Shown here: one piece after another, positions 42,050 through 51,359 of the stretch
Position numbering within the stretch: position 1 is the stretch's first letter
Layout of the letters: every line of letters starts with the position of its first letter
NCBI RefSeq assembly: GCF_019431355.1
Contig: NZ_CP080269.1
Coordinates: 5,141,001 to 5,205,000, forward strand
Reading direction: 5' to 3'
Origin: Paenibacillus sp. R14(2021)
Lineage (GTDB): Bacteria > Bacillota > Bacilli > Paenibacillales > Paenibacillaceae
Length of the DNA: 64,000 nucleotides
The notes under the pieces: generated by a model
Databases searched by the model: none
Told to the model about the DNA's origin: nothing
The model's input: only the letters and a program-made list of their open reading frames with translations
Position numbers and translations under genes: made by a program

Positions 42050-42568
42050 TTATTGCACTTCGATGGCGAACACGACAGACGTATCCCCTTTGGCATACTT
42101 GCCGTCCTCCGATTTCCAGAACGCCGAGATGCCGTAATCATACACGCCAGGCTCCTCCGGTGCATGGAACTGCCCGCCTGTCATCGGAATGCTGCTGAAT
42201 GCGTTGCCGTCAAGATACTGCGTGAGATCTACCTGCGCGGGGGCGGGCTGATAGGGAATCGAAATTTGAATAGCCGCGCCGGGCGTTACGACTGCCGGCT
42301 GCTTGCCTTGCAGCATGATTTTACCTCCGGCATAATCGGCGCAGCCTCTGTTGCCCCAGCAGTACGTGCTTTGCGTGACGGGAATGGGTTTACCGGCGGA
42401 AACCACTTGCGGCACCGGAATGGTATCCGGCTTCGTAAGGATGGCATGGGCCTTCTGCGAGACAAAGGACTTCAAGGCCGAGGCTTGCGAGCAGCCGGTC
42501 AAGGCGAGCATGCTTGCAGCGAGCAGCAGGAAGACGCTGGATCGGGCGATGAACGGAATTTTACGCAT
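42050..42568 (-). CDS. Lipoprotein of unknown function
   Basis: A 172-residue lipoprotein with signal peptide, LALTG and lipidated Cys26. The mature domain has a pair of cysteines (YCWGNRGCADYAGG) that could form a disulfide and then beta-rich segments (VVTPGAAIQISIPYQP, GVYDYGISAFWKSEDG), suggesting an immunoglobulin-like fold outside the membrane. AAGGAGGT precedes the ATG. I do not recognise a characterised family. It stands alone, convergent to the small basic protein gene. Confidence 0.8.
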   Translation of the reverse strand: MRKIPFIARSSVFLLLAASMLALTGCSQASALKSFVSQKAHAILTKPDTIPVPQVVSAGKPIPVTQSTYCWGNRGCADYAGGKIMLQGKQPAVVTPGAAIQISIPYQPAPAQVDLTQYLDGNAFSSIPMTGGQFHAPEEPGVYDYGISAFWKSEDGKYAKGDTSVVFAIEVQ

Positions 42569-42745
42569 GGAATGCCGACCTCCTTGTTGCTGCTATAGAC
42601 GAACGTTCGAAGGAAAAGGTTCCGCGGGCAGCAGCCGGAATGCGGCGAAGGCGGCATTGTTAATTGCGGAAAACATGATATATTGACTAGGGCAGCGCAG
42701 CCCGTCTCTAAGGCTGCCCGTATAGCTGGAAAGGAAAACGGAACG

Positions 42746-43165
42746 ATGAACAGACGCAAAGAATTGCAAAACGAATTCGGCATGAAGCAGCGTGCCATGG
42801 GCATCTTTCAAATTACTAACGGGCGCAATGGCAAACGGTACGTCGCAGCTTCGCCGACCTTGGACTCGGCCTGGCAGCGGGAGAAGTTCATGCTCGACAT
42901 GGGCAGCCATCTCAATTCATCGCTTCAAGCGGACTATAAAGAGCAAGCCGGCGTCGATTTTCATTATGAAGAGCTTGAGAGGTTAAGTCTTGCCGAAGAG
43001 TCGGGCAGCGTGAACAAGGATGCGCTCGAACCAAGAACGACCGCGCTCAATCGCGGGGCAGTGCAGGCCTATCGGGACGCGCTCAAGAGGCTGGAGCAGC
43101 AATGGCTGGACAAGCTGCAGCCCTTCGAGCCGGACGGCTACAATCGGACAACGAGGGAGCAGTAG
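42746..43165 (+). CDS. GIY-YIG nuclease-like protein, motif degenerate
   Basis: A 139-residue soluble protein. After a helical N-terminus (MNRRKELQNEFGMKQRAM) comes GIFQITNGRNGKRYVAAS, which aligns with the GIY-(about 10)-YIG core but reads GIF and YVA. The following SAWQREKFMLDMGSHLNSSL has an Arg at the position of the catalytic Arg and matches small Bacillota GIY-YIG proteins, and the Glu-rich helix FHYEELERLSL is where the metal-binding Glu is found. About 45 more residues form a C-terminal helix. With the altered GIY-YIG tyrosines, nuclease activity is doubtful. The ATG at 42746 has AAAGGAAA upstream. Confidence 0.75.
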   Translation: MNRRKELQNEFGMKQRAMGIFQITNGRNGKRYVAASPTLDSAWQREKFMLDMGSHLNSSLQADYKEQAGVDFHYEELERLSLAEESGSVNKDALEPRTTALNRGAVQAYRDALKRLEQQWLDKLQPFEPDGYNRTTREQ

Positions 43166-43371: not shown

Positions 43372-43398
43372 GGAACTATTAGGCGGCTCCATCGTCTA
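43372..43398 (+). promoter_or_regulatory. ECF-type promoter, probably autoregulated
   Basis: GGAAC at 43372-43376, 16 bases, then CGTCTA at 43393-43398. This fits the general ECF promoter form (GGAAC/TGAAAC, N16-17, CGTC/CGTA). The expected transcription start falls near 43404, only about a dozen bases before the TTG start codon, so the mRNA leader would be little more than the ribosome binding site. Confidence 0.6.
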
Positions 43399-43416
43399 CT
43401 TTCCGAGGTGAATAGG

Positions 43417-43983
43417 TTGCAGTTTGAATATTTGAAGCATGTGACAGATGGCTTGGACCGTCACGCTGTGCTTAACGAGCTTATGGCGGCGTACGGCAAG
43501 GACGTCTGGAATTTCGCCTTCTTCTACACGCATTCGAGAGAGATGGCAGACGATATCGCTCAGGACGTATTCGTGAAGGTATTTCAGCAGCTTTACGATT
43601 TCCGGGGACAGTCGTCGATCAAAACATGGCTGCTTTCCATTACCCGCAACACGGCGCGCGACGTGCTGCGGTCGGCTTGGGTGAGGCGGGTCGTGCTATT
43701 CGATACGATTCGTACCCGCTCGCACCATTCGCCGTCGGCGGAGCGGGAGAGCCTGGACAAGCTGATGACCGAGGAGATTTGGGCGGTCGTCTTGAAGCTG
43801 CCGCGAAAGCTGCGGGAAGTGCTGCTGCTGAATAGCCATTATGACCTCTCCATGCAAGAGATGGCGGATTTGCTCCAAGTATCAATCGGCACCGTGAAGT
43901 CGCGTTTGCACCGCGCAAGAGCCGCGGTCAATCGAATGCTGACCGAGACATCACTGTTGACCGGGGAGGAAGAATGGACATGA
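43417..43983 (+). CDS. ECF sigma factor of a sensory operon
   Basis: A 188-residue sigma factor. Region 2 (about 20-90): LMAAYGKDVWNFAFFYTH, MADDIAQDVFVKVFQQLYDF and SIKTWLLSITRNTARDVLRS. Region 4 (about 115-175): LKLPRKLREVLLLNSHYDLSM, EMADLLQVSIGTVKSRLHRAR. Start is a TTG at 43417 with GAGGTG eight bases upstream; a GTG at 43408 inside that site is the alternative. Its end overlaps the next gene by ten bases, the arrangement of sigma with its anti-sigma. It should recruit RNA polymerase to this operon and perhaps to transport or hydrolase genes elsewhere once released from its partner. Confidence 0.9.
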   Translation: MQFEYLKHVTDGLDRHAVLNELMAAYGKDVWNFAFFYTHSREMADDIAQDVFVKVFQQLYDFRGQSSIKTWLLSITRNTARDVLRSAWVRRVVLFDTIRTRSHHSPSAERESLDKLMTEEIWAVVLKLPRKLREVLLLNSHYDLSMQEMADLLQVSIGTVKSRLHRARAAVNRMLTETSLLTGEEEWT

Positions 43984-45524
43984 AGGAGCCGGTAAACGAC
44001 TGGGAGCGTCGTCTTGCAGGAAAGCCTCCCGTAAGGAATGGGTTCACCTCGGAGCTGGAACGTAAAGTGAGGGAGCGCATTTATATGAATACAACCAAAC
44101 GGCGTGCGCTGTTTCGAGCGGCGGCTGCGATAATGAGCATGGTTATTTTGATAGGCTGCGGCTGGTGGTTTCGGGACGATGTCATAGCGCTGCTGAAGCC
44201 GAAGGGACAAGAAGAGGTGCCTGCCGCATTAAGCAAGGACCCGCTCGCGAATAAGGAATATGTGCTGAAGGTGCAGCAGTTCGAACAGATGAACAGCTTC
44301 GAATATCTCTATAAGAAACCGTTCATTATTCGGCATCCATCCGTGAAACTGAAGATGGCGAACGCCGCTTACAAGCTTGCGCAGGATCCCGAGAAATTCG
44401 AAGCCTGGTTCGATCAGGAACAGCCGGACATCGTACAACTGCCAATGAATCTCTATACGAAGCTTGCTGCGGACGGCAAGCTGAAGCCGCTGGATGCGCT
44501 GATGAAGGCAAGCAAATTCGACTTGGGGGCGCTGCATGCCCCGCTGATCGACTACCTGCGGCAGGCGGGCGGGAACGGCGAGCTATATGGACTTTCGCCG
44601 GATTTTGACACCATGGTGTTGTACATCAACGAGGATGTATTTGCTGCTCACGGGATTGCGGTGCCCGAAGGCGAGCAGTCGATGGAGCAGATTTTGCAGC
44701 TGGCTGCGCGGTTTCAAGGCACTGGTGTTACGGGGCTCAGCGCGACAGCCCAGGCGAACAAGTTCTCGCTGGTGGAGCTGATCGGGCAAACGAACGGCCT
44801 GCAAACGATGAAGAGCGTTGAAGGTCACTACGAGGCAACGGTCAATTCCGCGGCGTGGAAGAAGATATGGGATTCGGTCGCTGCCGGCTACCGGGACGGC
44901 TGGATCAAGCCGGAGAAGGCGAAAAACTACGGCAAGAATGGTTTGACAATGGCAGAGATGGCCAAACAGGATGCCTTTGCGCTCGGCCAGGTCGCCATGA
45001 CGATCGCACCCAGCTATTACTACACAAATTATGAGCAGTATGCGCAAGAAGAGGCGATGAAGGCGAATTGGGCTGCGCTGCCGATTCACGTCGATCCGTC
45101 GGCAACCAATCCAGGCAGATATCTCAGTGCGAACACGATCTACGCATTGAATGCATCCTCGATCCAAAGCGAAGCGGCTTGGCAGCTGCTGCAGTTTATC
45201 GTCGGAAGCAAACTTACTGATAGTCCTAGTACTCGATATCAGCTCCTGAAGCCGCTGGCCGATCGGACAGGAATGAACCCGGCAACGAGCAAGCATTGGG
45301 ATGCCTTTTATGCGACAGGGGTTGATCCGGTGAAGGCGGCGGAAAACACGATCTTCCTGTCGGACCCAGATGTTTCTGCGGCAAACGGGATCCTGTACAA
45401 GCTCGGCAGTGAAGAAATGGAATCCATTCTGAATGATTCGATTTCCGTCTCAGCGGCGCTTGAGTCGCTTCAGAGCAAACTGGAAACCCAGCTTCTTGGC
45501 ATCGAACAAGGTAAGCGCCCATGA
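43974..45524 (+). CDS. Probable anti-sigma factor fused to an extracellular solute-binding domain
   Basis: A 516-residue protein. Residues 1-45 are cytoplasmic, polar and helical (NDWERRLAGKPPVRNGF, TSELERKVRERIYM); 47-66 are one membrane segment; about 75-510 are a family 1 type solute-binding domain (ADGKLKPLDALMKASKFDLG, LYGLSPDFDTMVLYINEDVF, QDAFALGQVAMTIAPSYYYT). The gene begins inside the sigma gene, so the short cytoplasmic part is well placed to hold the sigma factor. There is no ABC permease nearby. Oddities: the membrane segment ends in ILIG followed by Cys62, a good lipobox, and the internal ATG at 44085 (Met38) has GAGGGAG nine bases upstream, so a shorter lipoprotein form is possible. 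No known anti-sigma domain (ZAS zinc motif) is seen; the role is inferred from position and topology. Confidence 0.75.
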   Translation: MDMKEPVNDWERRLAGKPPVRNGFTSELERKVRERIYMNTTKRRALFRAAAAIMSMVILIGCGWWFRDDVIALLKPKGQEEVPAALSKDPLANKEYVLKVQQFEQMNSFEYLYKKPFIIRHPSVKLKMANAAYKLAQDPEKFEAWFDQEQPDIVQLPMNLYTKLAADGKLKPLDALMKASKFDLGALHAPLIDYLRQAGGNGELYGLSPDFDTMVLYINEDVFAAHGIAVPEGEQSMEQILQLAARFQGTGVTGLSATAQANKFSLVELIGQTNGLQTMKSVEGHYEATVNSAAWKKIWDSVAAGYRDGWIKPEKAKNYGKNGLTMAEMAKQDAFALGQVAMTIAPSYYYTNYEQYAQEEAMKANWAALPIHVDPSATNPGRYLSANTIYALNASSIQSEAAWQLLQFIVGSKLTDSPSTRYQLLKPLADRTGMNPATSKHWDAFYATGVDPVKAAENTIFLSDPDVSAANGILYKLGSEEMESILNDSISVSAALESLQSKLETQLLGIEQGKRP

Positions 45525-46852
45525 GAAAACGTCTAATTGCTTTTCTCGTTGCGGCGATCATGATGAGTTCGTTGCTCTACGGCTGCATGCTTCGCAGCGA
45601 TGGTGATGCCAGCCAACAGGTGCTGCGCATCGCGCTTCCGGACAAGGATAGTTATCAATCGAGTCTAGGCGATTATTTGTCAGCCGCTTATCCGGATATG
45701 AAGGTTGAGTTGATCGAAATGGAGCCGGGCTTTAATCCGATTTCCATCGAGCAATACGAGCAGAAGCTGAAGGAAGAGAAGCCGGATCTCGTTCTGCTGG
45801 GCTATTCGGGCAAATACGCCAAACTGGCGTCAGACGGCATGCTGTCGGACTTATCGCTTCGCATGCAAGCAAGCGGCCTGCATGAAGACGATTTATACCC
45901 CGGCATGATCGAGAAGATCAAACGTGACGGAGGAGGCACTTTGTTTGCCATCGCCCCTACGTTTCAAGCCGAGGTGCTATACTACAACGCGGATCTGTTC
46001 CGCCAGTATAAGGTCGGCCTGCCGCAGAACGGGATGACGATCAAGGATGTGATGAAGCTGGCCAGTCAGTTTGCCAGAGCAGGCAGCTACAAGGCCGGCA
46101 TCGCAGGCTACCACTTGCCGCTGAGCAGCATGCCGAAGGATCTGCTGCTCGATATGTCGAGCCGAGAGGGCATCAAGGCTGTCGACTTTCGTTCAGGGAA
46201 GGTCACGGTCAACACGCCCAGCTGGAGAGCGCTTATCACGATGGTCATCGAATTGTATCGGAACGGAACTTACAGGATGCAGAATGTGCAGGGCGTAGTG
46301 AAGGACGGGGAGACTTGGTACGGCCCCGAGGAGGTAAGCGAGGCGGATTTATTCGCCAAAGGGAAAGCGGCGATGACGATCGCCAGCTACAACAGCATTC
46401 AGAATGCAAAATTCGAGACGGGCTTCGTCACGCCGCCGGTCAGCTCGCTCGACACGAGCCGCTCTATGAATCTGGGCGTCTACAACTACATGGCGATCCC
46501 CGCGGGCGCCGCGAACGGGGATGCGGCATGGACGGTCATTCAGTTCATGTTAAGCGACTATATGGCGAAGGTAAGCGCAGGTCTTGAAGAAGCCTACGCC
46601 ATGCCGGTACAGAAGTCATACATGAAATACGACCATAATCCTGTATTGCCTAAACTGTATGACTTGCTGCCTGGCGTCGATCAAGTGTACGACTCCACCG
46701 GTTACGACCCCAAGTTCATGACCCTATTCTACGAGCTGCAGGATCGTGAAATCAAAGCCGCCGTCAAAGGCGAGATAACCGCCGATGCCTGCATCGCGGC
46801 GATTCAGCAAGAAGGACAAGCGCTGCTTGACGCTGCGAAAGTGAAGAAGTAG
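45521..46852 (+). CDS. Solute-binding lipoprotein, third gene of ECF operon
   Basis: A 443-residue lipoprotein with signal peptide ending LLYG and Cys22. The mature part is a family 1 type binding protein: VLRIALPDKDSYQSSLGDYL, KEEKPDLVLLGYSGKYAKLA, APTFQAEVLYYNADLFRQY, LFAKGKAAMTIASYNSIQ. Its start overlaps the stop of the fusion gene (ATGA), so it is made together with sigma factor and fusion protein. It is shorter than the LplA-type protein at 8114 and not paired with permeases. It may present a ligand to the membrane-anchored homologous domain, or compete for it. A strong terminator follows. Confidence 0.88.
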   Translation: MRKRLIAFLVAAIMMSSLLYGCMLRSDGDASQQVLRIALPDKDSYQSSLGDYLSAAYPDMKVELIEMEPGFNPISIEQYEQKLKEEKPDLVLLGYSGKYAKLASDGMLSDLSLRMQASGLHEDDLYPGMIEKIKRDGGGTLFAIAPTFQAEVLYYNADLFRQYKVGLPQNGMTIKDVMKLASQFARAGSYKAGIAGYHLPLSSMPKDLLLDMSSREGIKAVDFRSGKVTVNTPSWRALITMVIELYRNGTYRMQNVQGVVKDGETWYGPEEVSEADLFAKGKAAMTIASYNSIQNAKFETGFVTPPVSSLDTSRSMNLGVYNYMAIPAGAANGDAAWTVIQFMLSDYMAKVSAGLEEAYAMPVQKSYMKYDHNPVLPKLYDLLPGVDQVYDSTGYDPKFMTLFYELQDREIKAAVKGEITADACIAAIQQEGQALLDAAKVKK

Positions 46853-47015: not shown

Positions 47016-48179
47016 CTAGACGCCGCTTCCTTTCATTTTGGCCAGAAATGCGGAGATCGCATAGTAGGCGGCCCCGCGTACGGCGGAGCGGTCCCCCTGC
47101 TCCGCGAACAGAATGCGCAGCTTGCCGCGGTGATGCGACAAGGCGCGGCCTGCAACGGTGCGCTGAATCGCATCGCTGATCCAGGCTTCCGCCCGCCGCA
47201 TCCGGTTTCCGATGATCACGACATCAGGATTAAACACGTTGACGATGTTCGCGATGCCGACGCCGATCCATTCCCCGATGTGATCGAGCAGCGCAATCAC
47301 CTCCGCGTTACCGTGCGATGCGGCATCCAGCAAGTCTTCCAGGTCGTGATAGCCAAGCGGCACGGCTTGCTCCAGCAGCGCATTCTCGGAAGCGTACAGC
47401 TCCCAGCAGCCTTGATTGCCGCAGCGGCAGGGCTTACCGTCCGCTTCGATGGAGAGATGTCCAAGCTCGCCGGAGAACCCGCCGGCGCCGCGGTACAGCT
47501 CTTTATTCAAGATCATGCCGGTTCCGATCCCGATCCCGACACTGACATAAATCTGATTGGCGACACGGCGGCCTGCTCCGTACTTCTGCTCGCCCTGCGC
47601 GCCTGCGTTCGCCTCGTTATCGATCGTAACAGGCACGCCGAACCGAGCTTCGACCACCGCCCGCAGCGGCACTTCCGGCCAAGAGAGGTTCGGCGCGAAC
47701 AGAATCGTGCCGGATTCGTTAACAAGGCCGGGCACGCCGATCCCGATGCCGACCAGGCCGTAAGGGCAGTCCGGGATATCAAGCCGCAGCGCATCGATGC
47801 AGGCAATCAGCTGCGCGATTACGCTATCCGAATCCTGCGTAGTCAGCGTCAGCGTACATTCGCTGATGACGGCGCCTTCCAGATCAGTCAGAATGCCGAG
47901 AATGTAGTTGACGCCAAGATCGATGCCAATTGCATAACCGGCGCTCGCATGAAACTGCAGCAGGTTCGGCTTGCGGCCGCCGCTGGATTTGCCTAGCCCT
48001 AGATCCAGCACGAGATGGCTGTCGATCAGATCCTGCACGAGACTCGATACCGTTGCCTTGTTCAGTCCCGTCCGCTCCGAGATTTGGGCACGCGAGAGAG
48101 GGGCATACCGGAGCACCGCATCCAGCACGATCGCGGTATTCATTTTTTTGACGAGCGCCAAATCTCCGGTTTTCTTCAT
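47016..48179 (-). CDS. xylR: ROK-family xylose repressor
   Basis: A 387-residue protein, equal in length to Bacillus XylR. Residues 1-80 hold a winged helix (LSRAQISERTGLNKATVSSLVQDLI). The ROK part follows: IGIDLGVNYILGIL (phosphate-loop type strand), VGIGIGVPGLVN, TIDNEANAGAQGE and the zinc site GKPCRCGNQGCWE. It is divergent from xylA, and an inverted repeat of the xyl operator type lies at 48442-48466 by the xylA promoter. Xylose should release it. The ATG at 48179 is preceded by GGAGG at a slightly long distance (12 bases). An open frame upstream adds residues with no ribosome binding site. Confidence 0.93.
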   Translation of the reverse strand: MKKTGDLALVKKMNTAIVLDAVLRYAPLSRAQISERTGLNKATVSSLVQDLIDSHLVLDLGLGKSSGGRKPNLLQFHASAGYAIGIDLGVNYILGILTDLEGAVISECTLTLTTQDSDSVIAQLIACIDALRLDIPDCPYGLVGIGIGVPGLVNESGTILFAPNLSWPEVPLRAVVEARFGVPVTIDNEANAGAQGEQKYGAGRRVANQIYVSVGIGIGTGMILNKELYRGAGGFSGELGHLSIEADGKPCRCGNQGCWELYASENALLEQAVPLGYHDLEDLLDAASHGNAEVIALLDHIGEWIGVGIANIVNVFNPDVVIIGNRMRRAEAWISDAIQRTVAGRALSHHRGKLRILFAEQGDRSAVRGAAYYAISAFLAKMKGSGV

Positions 48180-48441
48180 AATCCGCTGACTTCCTCCGTT
48201 TGCCTTGCATGATATGGGAACGATTTTACCACGGGAAACGAAATGTTGCATCTATAGTTTATGGGCCGAGAGAGGAGAAGCGTCCTCGGCGCGAATGAAC
48301 AGCTGACGATATCCGCATAATTCGGCTGGATTTAACAGAGGCTGATTCTGTTGAAACAACGTAATCCCCGGCAGGAGTTGAGAGGTAGGCTGTCCTGCTG
48401 CCGATATGCGGGCAAGACGTACAAGCTATTCAAAAAAACTT

Positions 48442-48482
48442 ACTTTGTTTACTAGACAAACAAAGTTTAACGATGCTAAAAT
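48442..48482 (+). promoter_or_regulatory. xylAB promoter with XylR operator
   Basis: ACTTTGTTT-7-AAACAAAGT (48442-48466) is a perfect inverted repeat like known XylR operators. The -35 TAGACA (48453-48458) lies inside it and an extended -10, TGCTAAAAT, ends at 48482 after an 18-base spacer. Confidence 0.75.
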
Positions 48483-48487
48483 AACCA

Positions 48488-48501
48488 TAAGAACGTTTTC
48501 A
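48488..48501. promoter_or_regulatory. CcpA (cre) box of xylAB
   Basis: Read on the minus strand TGAAAACGTTCTTA fits the cre consensus at 13 of 14 positions. It overlaps the probable transcription start, so glucose repression by CcpA is expected. Confidence 0.6.
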
Positions 48502-48531
48502 TAATCATTAATCCGGGAGGGATTTCATTTC

Positions 48532-49845
48532 ATGGCTTATTTCAAAAACATTGGTAAAATTGCATACGAAGGCAAAAACTCCGACAATCCGCTTGCGTTC
48601 AAACACTACAATCCGCAAGAAGTTGTACTTGGCAAAACGATGGAAGAACATTTGCGTTTCGCAGTCGCTTATTGGCATACATTCACAGGCACCGGCTCCG
48701 ATCCGTTCGGTGCAGGCACGGCCGTTCGCGGCTGGGACAGCGCGGACGCGATGGATCAAGCGAAAGCCCGCGTCGAAGCAAACTTCGAATTCCTGAGCAA
48801 AATCGGCATTCCGTACTACTGCTTTCATGACCGCGACATCGCGCCTGAAGGCACTACGCTTGCCGAAACGAACAAGAACCTTGACGTTATCGTAGACCTG
48901 CTGGAAGCGAACATGAAGACCTCCGGCGCGAAGCTGCTCTGGAACACGGCGAACATGTTCACGAACCCGCGCTTCGTTCACGGCGCAGGCACAACTTCCA
49001 ATGCCGACGTATTCGCTTATGCCGGCGCGCAGCTGAAGAAGAGCCTTGAAGTGGGCAAACGCCTCGGCGCGGAGAACTACGTCTTCTGGGGCGGCCGCGA
49101 AGGCTACGAAACGCTGCTTAACACGGATATGGCGCTTGAGCTCGATAACCTGGCACGCCTGTTCCACATGGCGATCGCGTACGCCAAAGAAATCGGCTTC
49201 GGTGCTCAATTCCTGATCGAGCCTAAACCGAAAGAGCCGTCCAAACACCAATACGACTTTGATGCGGCTACGACAATCGCGTTCCTGCAGAAATATGATC
49301 TCAAAGAGCACTTCAAGCTGAACCTGGAAGCGAACCATGCAACGCTCGCTGGCCACACGTTCGAGCACGAAATCCGCGTAGCGGCAATCAACGGCATGCT
49401 GGGCTCGCTCGATGCGAACCAAGGCGACCTGCTGCTCGGCTGGGATACGGATGAATTCCCGACCGACCTGTACTCCACGACGCTTACGATGTACGAAGTG
49501 CTCAAAGCCGGCGGCATCGGCAAGGGCGGCGTCAACTTCGACGCGAAAGTACGCCGCGGTTCCTTCGAGGACGAGGACTTGTTCCTCGCGCATATCGCAG
49601 GTATGGACACGTATGCTTGGGGCCTCAAAGCAGCTGCGAAGCTGATCGAAGAGAAGGTGCTCGACAACATTGTCGACAACCGCTACCGCAGCTTCAAGGA
49701 CGGCATCGGCGCAGAGATCGTAGCCGGCCGCGCCACGCTGGCATCGCTTGAGCAGTATGCGCTGCAAAACAATGTGATCAAGAACGAATCCGGCCGCCAA
49801 GAGCGCATTAAATTGGTGCTGAACGAAATCATCTATAGCGTATAG
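48532..49845 (+). CDS. xylA: Xylose isomerase
   Basis: A 437-residue cytoplasmic class II xylose isomerase, interconverting D-xylose and D-xylulose. The TIM barrel shows [13 protein letters not shown] with catalytic His99 and Asp102, [33 protein letters not shown] with a metal Glu and catalytic Lys, [16 protein letters not shown] and [12 protein letters not shown] with further metal ligands. GGGAGGG precedes the ATG. It is the first gene of xylAB, controlled by the operator, promoter and cre box just upstream. Strong codon bias suggests high expression. Confidence 0.97.
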
Positions 49846-49859
49846 GAGGCCGTCGTACC

Positions 49860-51359
49860 ATGTCATACGTCATTGGGATCGACCTCGGCACAAGCGCGGT
49901 AAAGGTGCTGCTTCTGGACAGAAGCGGCGCCGTCGCGGCTGAGGCATCGCGCGACTATCCGCTGTTTCACGAGCATTCCGGCTGGAGCGAGCAGCGCCCA
50001 GACGATTGGGTGAAGGGCACGATCGAGGCGCTTCGCGAGCTGGCGGAGCGCTCCGGCGTTTCCCCGGATGCCATCGAAGGACTCAGCTTCTCGGGCCAAA
50101 TGCACGGTCTCGTGCTGCTGGACGCGGAGGGCAATCCTGTCCGCAACGCGATTCTGTGGAACGATACACGCACGACCGCGGAATGCCGCGAGATCGAAGC
50201 GCTTCTCGGCCAAGAGAAGCTGCTCACGATTACGCGTAATCCCGCGCTGGAAGGCTTCACGCTGCCTAAGATTCTGTGGGTGCGCAAGCACGAGCCCGAA
50301 GTATTCGCAAGAGCCGTATCGTTCCTGCTGCCGAAGGATTATGTCCGTTACCGGCTGACAGGCGCGCTGCATATGGACTTCTCCGATGCAGCCGGCACGC
50401 TGCTGCTGGACGTGGCGAACAAGCGCTGGAGCGACGCGGTGCTGGCGGCGGTCGGCCTGCCGGCATCGTTCGCGCCTCCGCTCGTGGAGTCGCATGCGCT
50501 GACGGGCACGCTGCTTCCGGAGCAAGCGAACGCAGCAGGGCTGAACGCCTCGACGAAAGTGTTCGCGGGCGGCGCAGACAATGCATGCGGAGCGATCGGC
50601 TCAGGCATACTGCAAGAAGGACTGACGATGTGCAGCATCGGCACTTCCGGCGTTATCCTTTCCTATGAGGAAGGCAGCGCCAACGATTTCCGCGGCAAGG
50701 TTCATTTCTTCAACCATGGTCAAGAGAACGCATTCTACGCCATGGGCGTAACGCTTGCGGCGGGCTACAGCTTAAGCTGGTTCAAGCAAACCTTCGCCAA
50801 GGGCGAGTCGTTCGACGAGCTTCTGCAAGGCGTCGGCGATGTGAAGCCGGGCTCCAAAGGGCTGCTCTTCACGCCTTATCTCGTCGGCGAGCGCACGCCG
50901 CATGCGGATTCCGTTATTCGTGCCAGCTTCATCGGCATAGACGGCTCGCATGAACGGGTGCATTTTGCCCGTGCGGTGATGGAAGGCATTACCTTCTCGC
51001 TCAACGAGTCGGTGGCGATGTTCCGTCAAGCCGGCAAGACGGTCGATACGATCATCTCGATCGGCGGCGGCGCATCCAATCCGGTATGGCTGCAAATGCA
51101 GGCGGACATTTTCAACGCTGACGTCGTGTCGCTTGCCAACGAGCAGGGTCCTGGTCTTGGCGCTGCCATGCTGGCGGCATACGGCTGCGGATGGTTCGAG
51201 AGCCTTACGGCGTGCGCGGAGCTGTTCGTGAAGCGCGGGTCGGTCTATAAGCCGAATCCGGCTGCAGTAGATGCCTACAGCGGTTTGTTCCGTATTTATC
51301 AAGAGGTGTACGCAGCAACGCGCGCATTGAATGAAGGGCTTCAAGGGTATCGCAATTAA
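49860..51359 (+). CDS. xylB: Xylulokinase
   Basis: A 499-residue FGGY-family sugar kinase that phosphorylates D-xylulose to xylulose 5-phosphate for the pentose phosphate pathway. The N-terminal IGIDLGTSAVKVLLLD is the first phosphate loop, LSFSGQMHGLVLLD and NAILWNDTRT are typical of xylulokinases, GGADNACGAIGSG has the catalytic Asp, and IGGGASNPVWLQMQADIF is the FGGY signature 2. AGGAGG lies before the ATG, 14 bases after xylA ends. A terminator closes the operon. Confidence 0.96.
   Translation: MSYVIGIDLGTSAVKVLLLDRSGAVAAEASRDYPLFHEHSGWSEQRPDDWVKGTIEALRELAERSGVSPDAIEGLSFSGQMHGLVLLDAEGNPVRNAILWNDTRTTAECREIEALLGQEKLLTITRNPALEGFTLPKILWVRKHEPEVFARAVSFLLPKDYVRYRLTGALHMDFSDAAGTLLLDVANKRWSDAVLAAVGLPASFAPPLVESHALTGTLLPEQANAAGLNASTKVFAGGADNACGAIGSGILQEGLTMCSIGTSGVILSYEEGSANDFRGKVHFFNHGQENAFYAMGVTLAAGYSLSWFKQTFAKGESFDELLQGVGDVKPGSKGLLFTPYLVGERTPHADSVIRASFIGIDGSHERVHFARAVMEGITFSLNESVAMFRQAGKTVDTIISIGGGASNPVWLQMQADIFNADVVSLANEQGPGLGAAMLAAYGCGWFESLTACAELFVKRGSVYKPNPAAVDAYSGLFRIYQEVYAATRALNEGLQGYRN

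Follow-up and report, generated by a model that had tools for sequence, protein, structure and literature searches.

A three-gene operon with an ECF sigma factor gene and two solute-binding proteins

Inspection of the open reading frames (ORFs) in the window, the whole 64,000-nucleotide stretch of DNA analyzed here from a 5.98-Mb, single-contig genome (G000), revealed three genes that overlap in series at positions 43417-46852 and encode a sigma factor, a fusion protein and a solute-binding protein (SBP). The operon comprises the following features.

43417..43983, + strand: ECF sigma factor gene, 188 aa; TTG start, ribosome-binding site GAGGTGA at 43405-43411
43974..45524, + strand: predicted anti-sigma factor, 516 aa; short cytoplasmic domain, one membrane helix and an extracellular solute-binding domain
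45521..46852, + strand: separate solute-binding lipoprotein, 443 aa
46891..46929, unstranded: strong palindrome with A/T flanks, read directly from the sequence; probable two-way terminator between the operon and the convergent xylR

The best start of the sigma ORF is the TTG at 43417, behind GAGGTGA, and the stop is at 43983. A Pfam scan of its product matched Sigma70_r2 (PF04542; 55.9 bits, cut-off 24) and Sigma70_r4_2 (PF08281; 51.6 bits, cut-off 25.7), and the closest solved chains are ECF sigma factors; the protein is of the ECF type, with regions 2 and 4 only. The sigma and fusion genes overlap by exactly 10 bases and the fusion and lipoprotein genes by 4 bases, as the first-pass annotation had stated and in agreement with it to the base. 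Its statement that no permease or ATPase is present also holds: no such gene was found between 40.3 and 51.4 kb of the window, where the neighbors of the operon encode an MFS transporter, a lipoprotein, a small protein, an XylR-like ROK protein, XylA and XylB. The gene content of the operon is sigma factor, fusion protein and SBP, with no histidine kinase receptor, and PADLOC gave no match in this analysis. The separate lipoprotein carries the lipobox LLYGC and matches SBP_bac_1 at 54.3 bits.

Sigma-fusion modules are conserved in Paenibacillales

Surveys of 297 Paenibacillaceae genomes and of 298 genomes of the order Paenibacillales, with inspection of full-length relatives, yielded 68 distinct modules in which an ECF gene is followed by a membrane-anchored SBP (43 from the family survey and 30 from the order survey, minus 5 overlaps). 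The first-pass annotation had set its reading against homologues that lie mostly beside ABC permeases without sigma genes; the opposite was found, an ECF sigma gene lying directly 5' of the full-length fusion homologue in 43/43 cases in Paenibacillaceae and 30/30 across the order. The two genes usually overlap in the modules inspected. The closest named module relative of the window is that of Paenibacillus sacheonensis, whose fusion protein is 60% identical, and 398 genomes sampled from the phylum contained no full-length relative outside the order. At one locus (L075), two sigma-fusion modules face each other on one small contig.

The outer region of the fusion protein has a MalE-type fold

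Three parts can be distinguished in the fusion protein.

43998..44087, + strand: conserved cytoplasmic segment, predicted anti-sigma, residues 9-38, with W10, E11, L14, P18, G23, F24, E34 and R35 (conservation, profile search)
44112..44168, + strand: membrane helix, residues 47-65 (AlphaFold2 model helix, hydrophobicity)
44250..45509, + strand: MalE-type solute-binding domain, residues 93-512 (PF01547, AlphaFold2 model, Foldseek)

This architecture of a short cytoplasmic segment, one membrane segment and a complete extracellular solute-binding domain had been described at first pass and was borne out by the ORF, by a PF01547 match of 41.6 bits at window positions 44421-45206 in a six-frame search, and by an AlphaFold2 model. 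A default Pfam hmmscan of the protein missed the SBP domain and found nothing, which looks like a filter effect; 37 of the 43 fusion homologues match PF01547. The model, built on these 43 homologues, shows a MalE-type fold over approximately residues 93-512, mostly with pLDDT >90. Foldseek returned 1eu8 and 4rk2 as the best matches of the model (E ~1e-18), and the top of the list consisted of trehalose/maltose-, sugar- and YesO-type binding proteins. From this fold, we infer a putative sugar-binding function for the outer domain. Cys62, in the sequence LIGC, was considered as a lipobox whose processing would cut off the anti-sigma domain, and was rejected: the position is Cys in 8 of the 43 homologues and Gly in 19.

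In nearly all modules, at least one SBP gene lies downstream of the fusion gene, and two or three are present in some. L080 is a module without a downstream SBP; it ends in a terminator-like stretch, so the lipoprotein is not indispensable. This bears on an alternative in which the fusion protein is an anti-sigma factor and its outer domain no longer binds a small ligand, but senses the envelope state or a protein contact, or serves as the docking site for the lipoprotein as the real receptor. Outer domains of different modules share 25-60% identity, the positions that follow the AMTI motif (348-350) vary in their aromatic residues, and proteins with unrelated outer domains carry the same N-terminal segment (see below), all of which would fit such a loss. 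However, the fold is complete and modeled with confidence, the aromatic residues W295, W366 and F335 of the outer domain are invariant in the 43 sequences, and L080 has no SBP gene after the fusion gene. We consider this alternative unlikely.

A short N-terminal segment is a predicted anti-sigma domain

The fusion protein has 46 Arg/Lys-rich residues before the membrane helix. Across the 43 modules, residues 9-38 are its best-conserved stretch, with a mean pairwise identity of 0.53; the corresponding values are 0.33 in the membrane helix, 0.32 in the SBP domain and 0.22 in the linker. The segment follows the motif WExxL..P..GF[TS]..K[VI][RK]ER[IV], in which W10, L14, F24, E34 and R35 are invariant. 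The AlphaFold2 model places helices at residues 10-13 and 26-38, with low confidence for these N-terminal helices (pLDDT 39-56). The profile match to anti-sigma families that the first-pass annotation had looked to for this N-terminus did not appear: in Pfam scans of the window's fusion protein and its homologues, the segment matched no anti-sigma family and no family at all. There was also no sequence match to solved anti-sigma chains.

Profile A3, which represents the N-terminal segment alone and uses no gene context, was run on 121 genomes and gave matches in 72 of them. An ECF sigma gene lies just upstream in all 30 of the profile-A3 loci fetched, ~21 of which carry other outer domains; those scanned were DUF4850, DUF4871 or without Pfam assignment. 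Because it lies behind an ECF gene at every locus fetched, whatever outer domain is attached, the segment appears to be a short, reused anti-sigma domain, and this co-occurrence with ECF genes regardless of the sensor carried is the strongest argument for such a role. Outside the modules, an ECF sigma gene accompanies 0/30 segment-less homologues. In L053 (second copy, L053:7108-8547), L059 (second copy, L059:6728-8245) and L057, the segment has been lost from duplicated membrane-SBP genes that are distant from the sigma gene; those in L053 and L059 retain their own copy of the ECF promoter. Conservation of the segment, its linkage to ECF genes, its reuse and its loss away from the sigma gene thus lend comparative support to the first-pass proposal that the fusion protein is the anti-sigma factor, with the N-terminal segment behaving as the predicted anti-sigma domain.

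Alternatively, the N-terminal segment might be a mere membrane anchor, the sigma factor only transcribing genes for membrane- or lipid-bound SBPs and being controlled otherwise, as could be imagined from the occurrence of segment-less homologous SBPs as orphan lipoproteins. A mere anchor, however, would not retain the invariant W/L/F/E/R pattern, and would not be expected either in ~21 other ECF-linked proteins or to be lost solely from copies distant from the sigma gene, which makes this explanation very improbable.

The short motif heads many ECF-linked membrane proteins (L176-L199; e.g., L179, L184, L188 and L197). P0004 (L084:3646-4692), which is a weaker relative and has FG-GAP-like repeats, sits behind the second ECF gene of locus L084.

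Related SBP genes and permeases

Among SBP relatives without the N-terminus, the closest are orphan lipoproteins that are frequently encoded in tandem, with no sigma gene and mostly no permease nearby. Such orphan solute-binding lipoproteins, commonly in tandem pairs or triplets, are scattered in Paenibacillales (L085, L088-L090, L092, L093, L095 and L097-L104). The window's own genome has a distant SBP relative (L096, G000:C1 117500-132000) whose gene follows MacB-like exporter genes encoding an ATPase, a 974-aa membrane protein and an HlyD-like protein.

That both SBPs of the operon serve an ABC importer encoded elsewhere, with the sigma gene an ordinary neighbor, was already disfavored and is scarcely credible: the window's genome has ~90 SBP-domain matches and the genes for permeases and SBPs can be separate, but the genes overlap or abut in constant order in 68 modules, no permease lies within the operon of any module inspected, and none was found in the fetched stretch of 36 of the 43 family loci, in a search with few queries, taken from the window's genome, that may miss distant types. 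In L061, a separate complete SBP-permease set lies ~450 bases downstream.

The operon has a conserved ECF-type promoter

Upstream of the operon lie two promoter matches and a divergent gene.

43372..43398, + strand: ECF-type promoter of the sigma operon, GGAAC-N16-CGTCTA, conserved in modules; the start codon follows after ~45 bases
42596..42623, − strand: second promoter match, GGAACCTTT...TTCGTCTA, spacer 17; candidate target
42050..42568, − strand: small divergent lipoprotein, 172 aa, behind the second promoter; candidate regulon member, uncertain

In 43 of 46 SBP modules, the pattern GGAAC[CT][AT]T...CGTC(TA), with a 16-base gap, precedes the start codon of the sigma gene by ~45 bases; in this count two loci enter twice and some match only CGT at −10. 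The strict pattern, searched in 22 genomes of the genus, gave 14 matches versus 2 for the reversed control, and 12 of the 14 are at modules. These comparisons strongly indicate that the operon is autoregulated from the GGAAC-N16-CGTC promoter. A genome-wide search of G000 yielded no excess over the reversed-pattern control (9 vs 20; second search, 12 vs 18), and a large regulon was rejected on these grounds.

The match at 42596..42623 is the only other convincing one in the window's genome. Homologues of the lipoprotein behind it have related promoters with other −35 letters, and these ECF-type promoters also occur in genomes without a module (G001, G020 and G079), suggesting that another sigma factor may serve this gene; as a specific target, the lipoprotein was rejected. 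With few promoter matches elsewhere and the lipoprotein perhaps a target of another sigma factor, the visible regulon appears small and consists mainly of the operon itself. The lipoprotein family (L203-L210) shares a conserved TYCWGxxGCADYxGG motif and ECF-type promoters.

Proposed mechanism

We propose, with a probability of roughly 0.78, that the locus in the window is a self-regulated unit of an ECF sigma factor and a transmembrane anti-sigma factor with a MalE-type outer sensor. First, residues 1-46 of the fusion protein would tether the ECF sigma factor to the membrane. The outer MalE-type domain, which has no transporter, would bind a ligand, probably a sugar or oligosaccharide, either alone or aided by the co-expressed lipoprotein, which may deliver the ligand as CuaD does to CuaS (PMC10384115). 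The ligand state would then be relayed through the one membrane helix, with regulated proteolysis of the anti-sigma factor as the most likely route by analogy with other Bacillota; RsiP (PMC8844934) and RsgI (PMC12203970) are precedents for this type of release. Finally, the freed sigma factor would transcribe its own operon from the GGAAC-N16-CGTC promoter, raising the levels of the sensor and the binding protein, but few other genes. Given the conserved unit of a sigma factor and a membrane protein with an outer domain of the sugar-binding type, Paenibacillales probably use an importer part without a pump to sense sugar outside the cell and turn genes on.

Comparison with known systems

The locus resembles the SigW-RsiW and SigP-RsiP type in three respects: the ECF sigma factor is limited to regions 2 and 4, its gene overlaps one that encodes a single-pass membrane protein whose N-terminus is cytoplasmic, and the ECF-type promoter is of a kind that indicates autoregulation. 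It differs in that the outer domain is a full solute-binding protein, that the operon adds an SBP lipoprotein, and that the cytoplasmic domain was not recognizable in Pfam scans as a class I or zinc anti-sigma domain. Class I domains have at least 50 residues, four helices and a profile match; the cytoplasmic domain here has ~46 residues, for which two helices are predicted, and matched nothing in Pfam. A short cytoplasmic two-helix anti-sigma domain, assigned to class II, is known from CnrY (PMC7406223). The window's segment is similar to it in size and in having two helices, predicted with low confidence, ahead of one membrane helix, but shows no detectable sequence similarity. CnrY works with the metal sensor CnrX, not with an SBP.

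In SigI/RsgI of Clostridium thermocellum (PMC12203970, PMC4711584), a single-pass anti-sigma factor with an outer carbohydrate-recognizing domain holds a sigma factor, much as proposed here. However, the window's sigma factor scores as ECF (Sigma70_r2, r4_2), and Pfam scans of its fusion protein and homologues gave no match to RsgI_N. Where RsgI has a polysaccharide-binding or glycosidase module on the outside, the fusion protein has a solute-binding protein, and the visible regulon is small. The three-component systems CuaDSR (PMC10384115) and XylFII-LytS share with the proposed unit an SBP that senses and has no transport role of its own, and a separate SBP beside a membrane receptor; here, in contrast, the output is an ECF sigma factor instead of a kinase, and the receptor itself contains an SBP domain. 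The SBP-activated receptors surveyed in 2022 (PMC9602780) comprise chemoreceptors, sensor kinases, diguanylate cyclases/phosphodiesterases and Ser/Thr kinases, and no anti-sigma factors. None of the literature that we searched reports an ECF anti-sigma factor that senses through a solute-binding domain; the 2021 ECF classification (157 groups), which lay outside this search, may include the sigma group.

More broadly, Paenibacillales may possess an unrecognized class of very short anti-sigma domains (WExxL..P..GF..K..ER) mounted on many outer sensors, including complete transport-type SBPs, the latter branch sensing sugar by an importer part without an importer and with an ECF sigma factor as the direct output; we give this generalization an even chance. 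If the proposals are correct, anti-sigma factors would be added to the kinds of receptor that work with an SBP, extracellular sugar would have a direct route to a sigma factor in a large group of bacteria from soil and plants, and the motif would provide a sequence signature for an anti-sigma domain absent from Pfam. They also hint at a sensing role for many permease-less SBP genes of these genomes. Being compact, with three genes and one clear promoter, the module could serve as a sugar-responsive switch in Bacillus subtilis.

The xyl neighborhood

xylR-xylA-xylB adjoins the module in the window (47016-51359) and in L054-L057, in the last of which it adjoins sigma-less copies, and xylR lies near the module in L058, L062, L066 and L067; xylR or the whole set is thus found next to the module in several genomes of two genera. 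A small gene upstream of the sigma gene (42683-43165), which matched no family, is also near the module in about a dozen loci. Since this gene is conserved too, the xyl linkage may be inherited synteny rather than function. As a lead, the linkage to xylR-xylA-xylB points to xylose or xylo-oligosaccharides as a candidate ligand.
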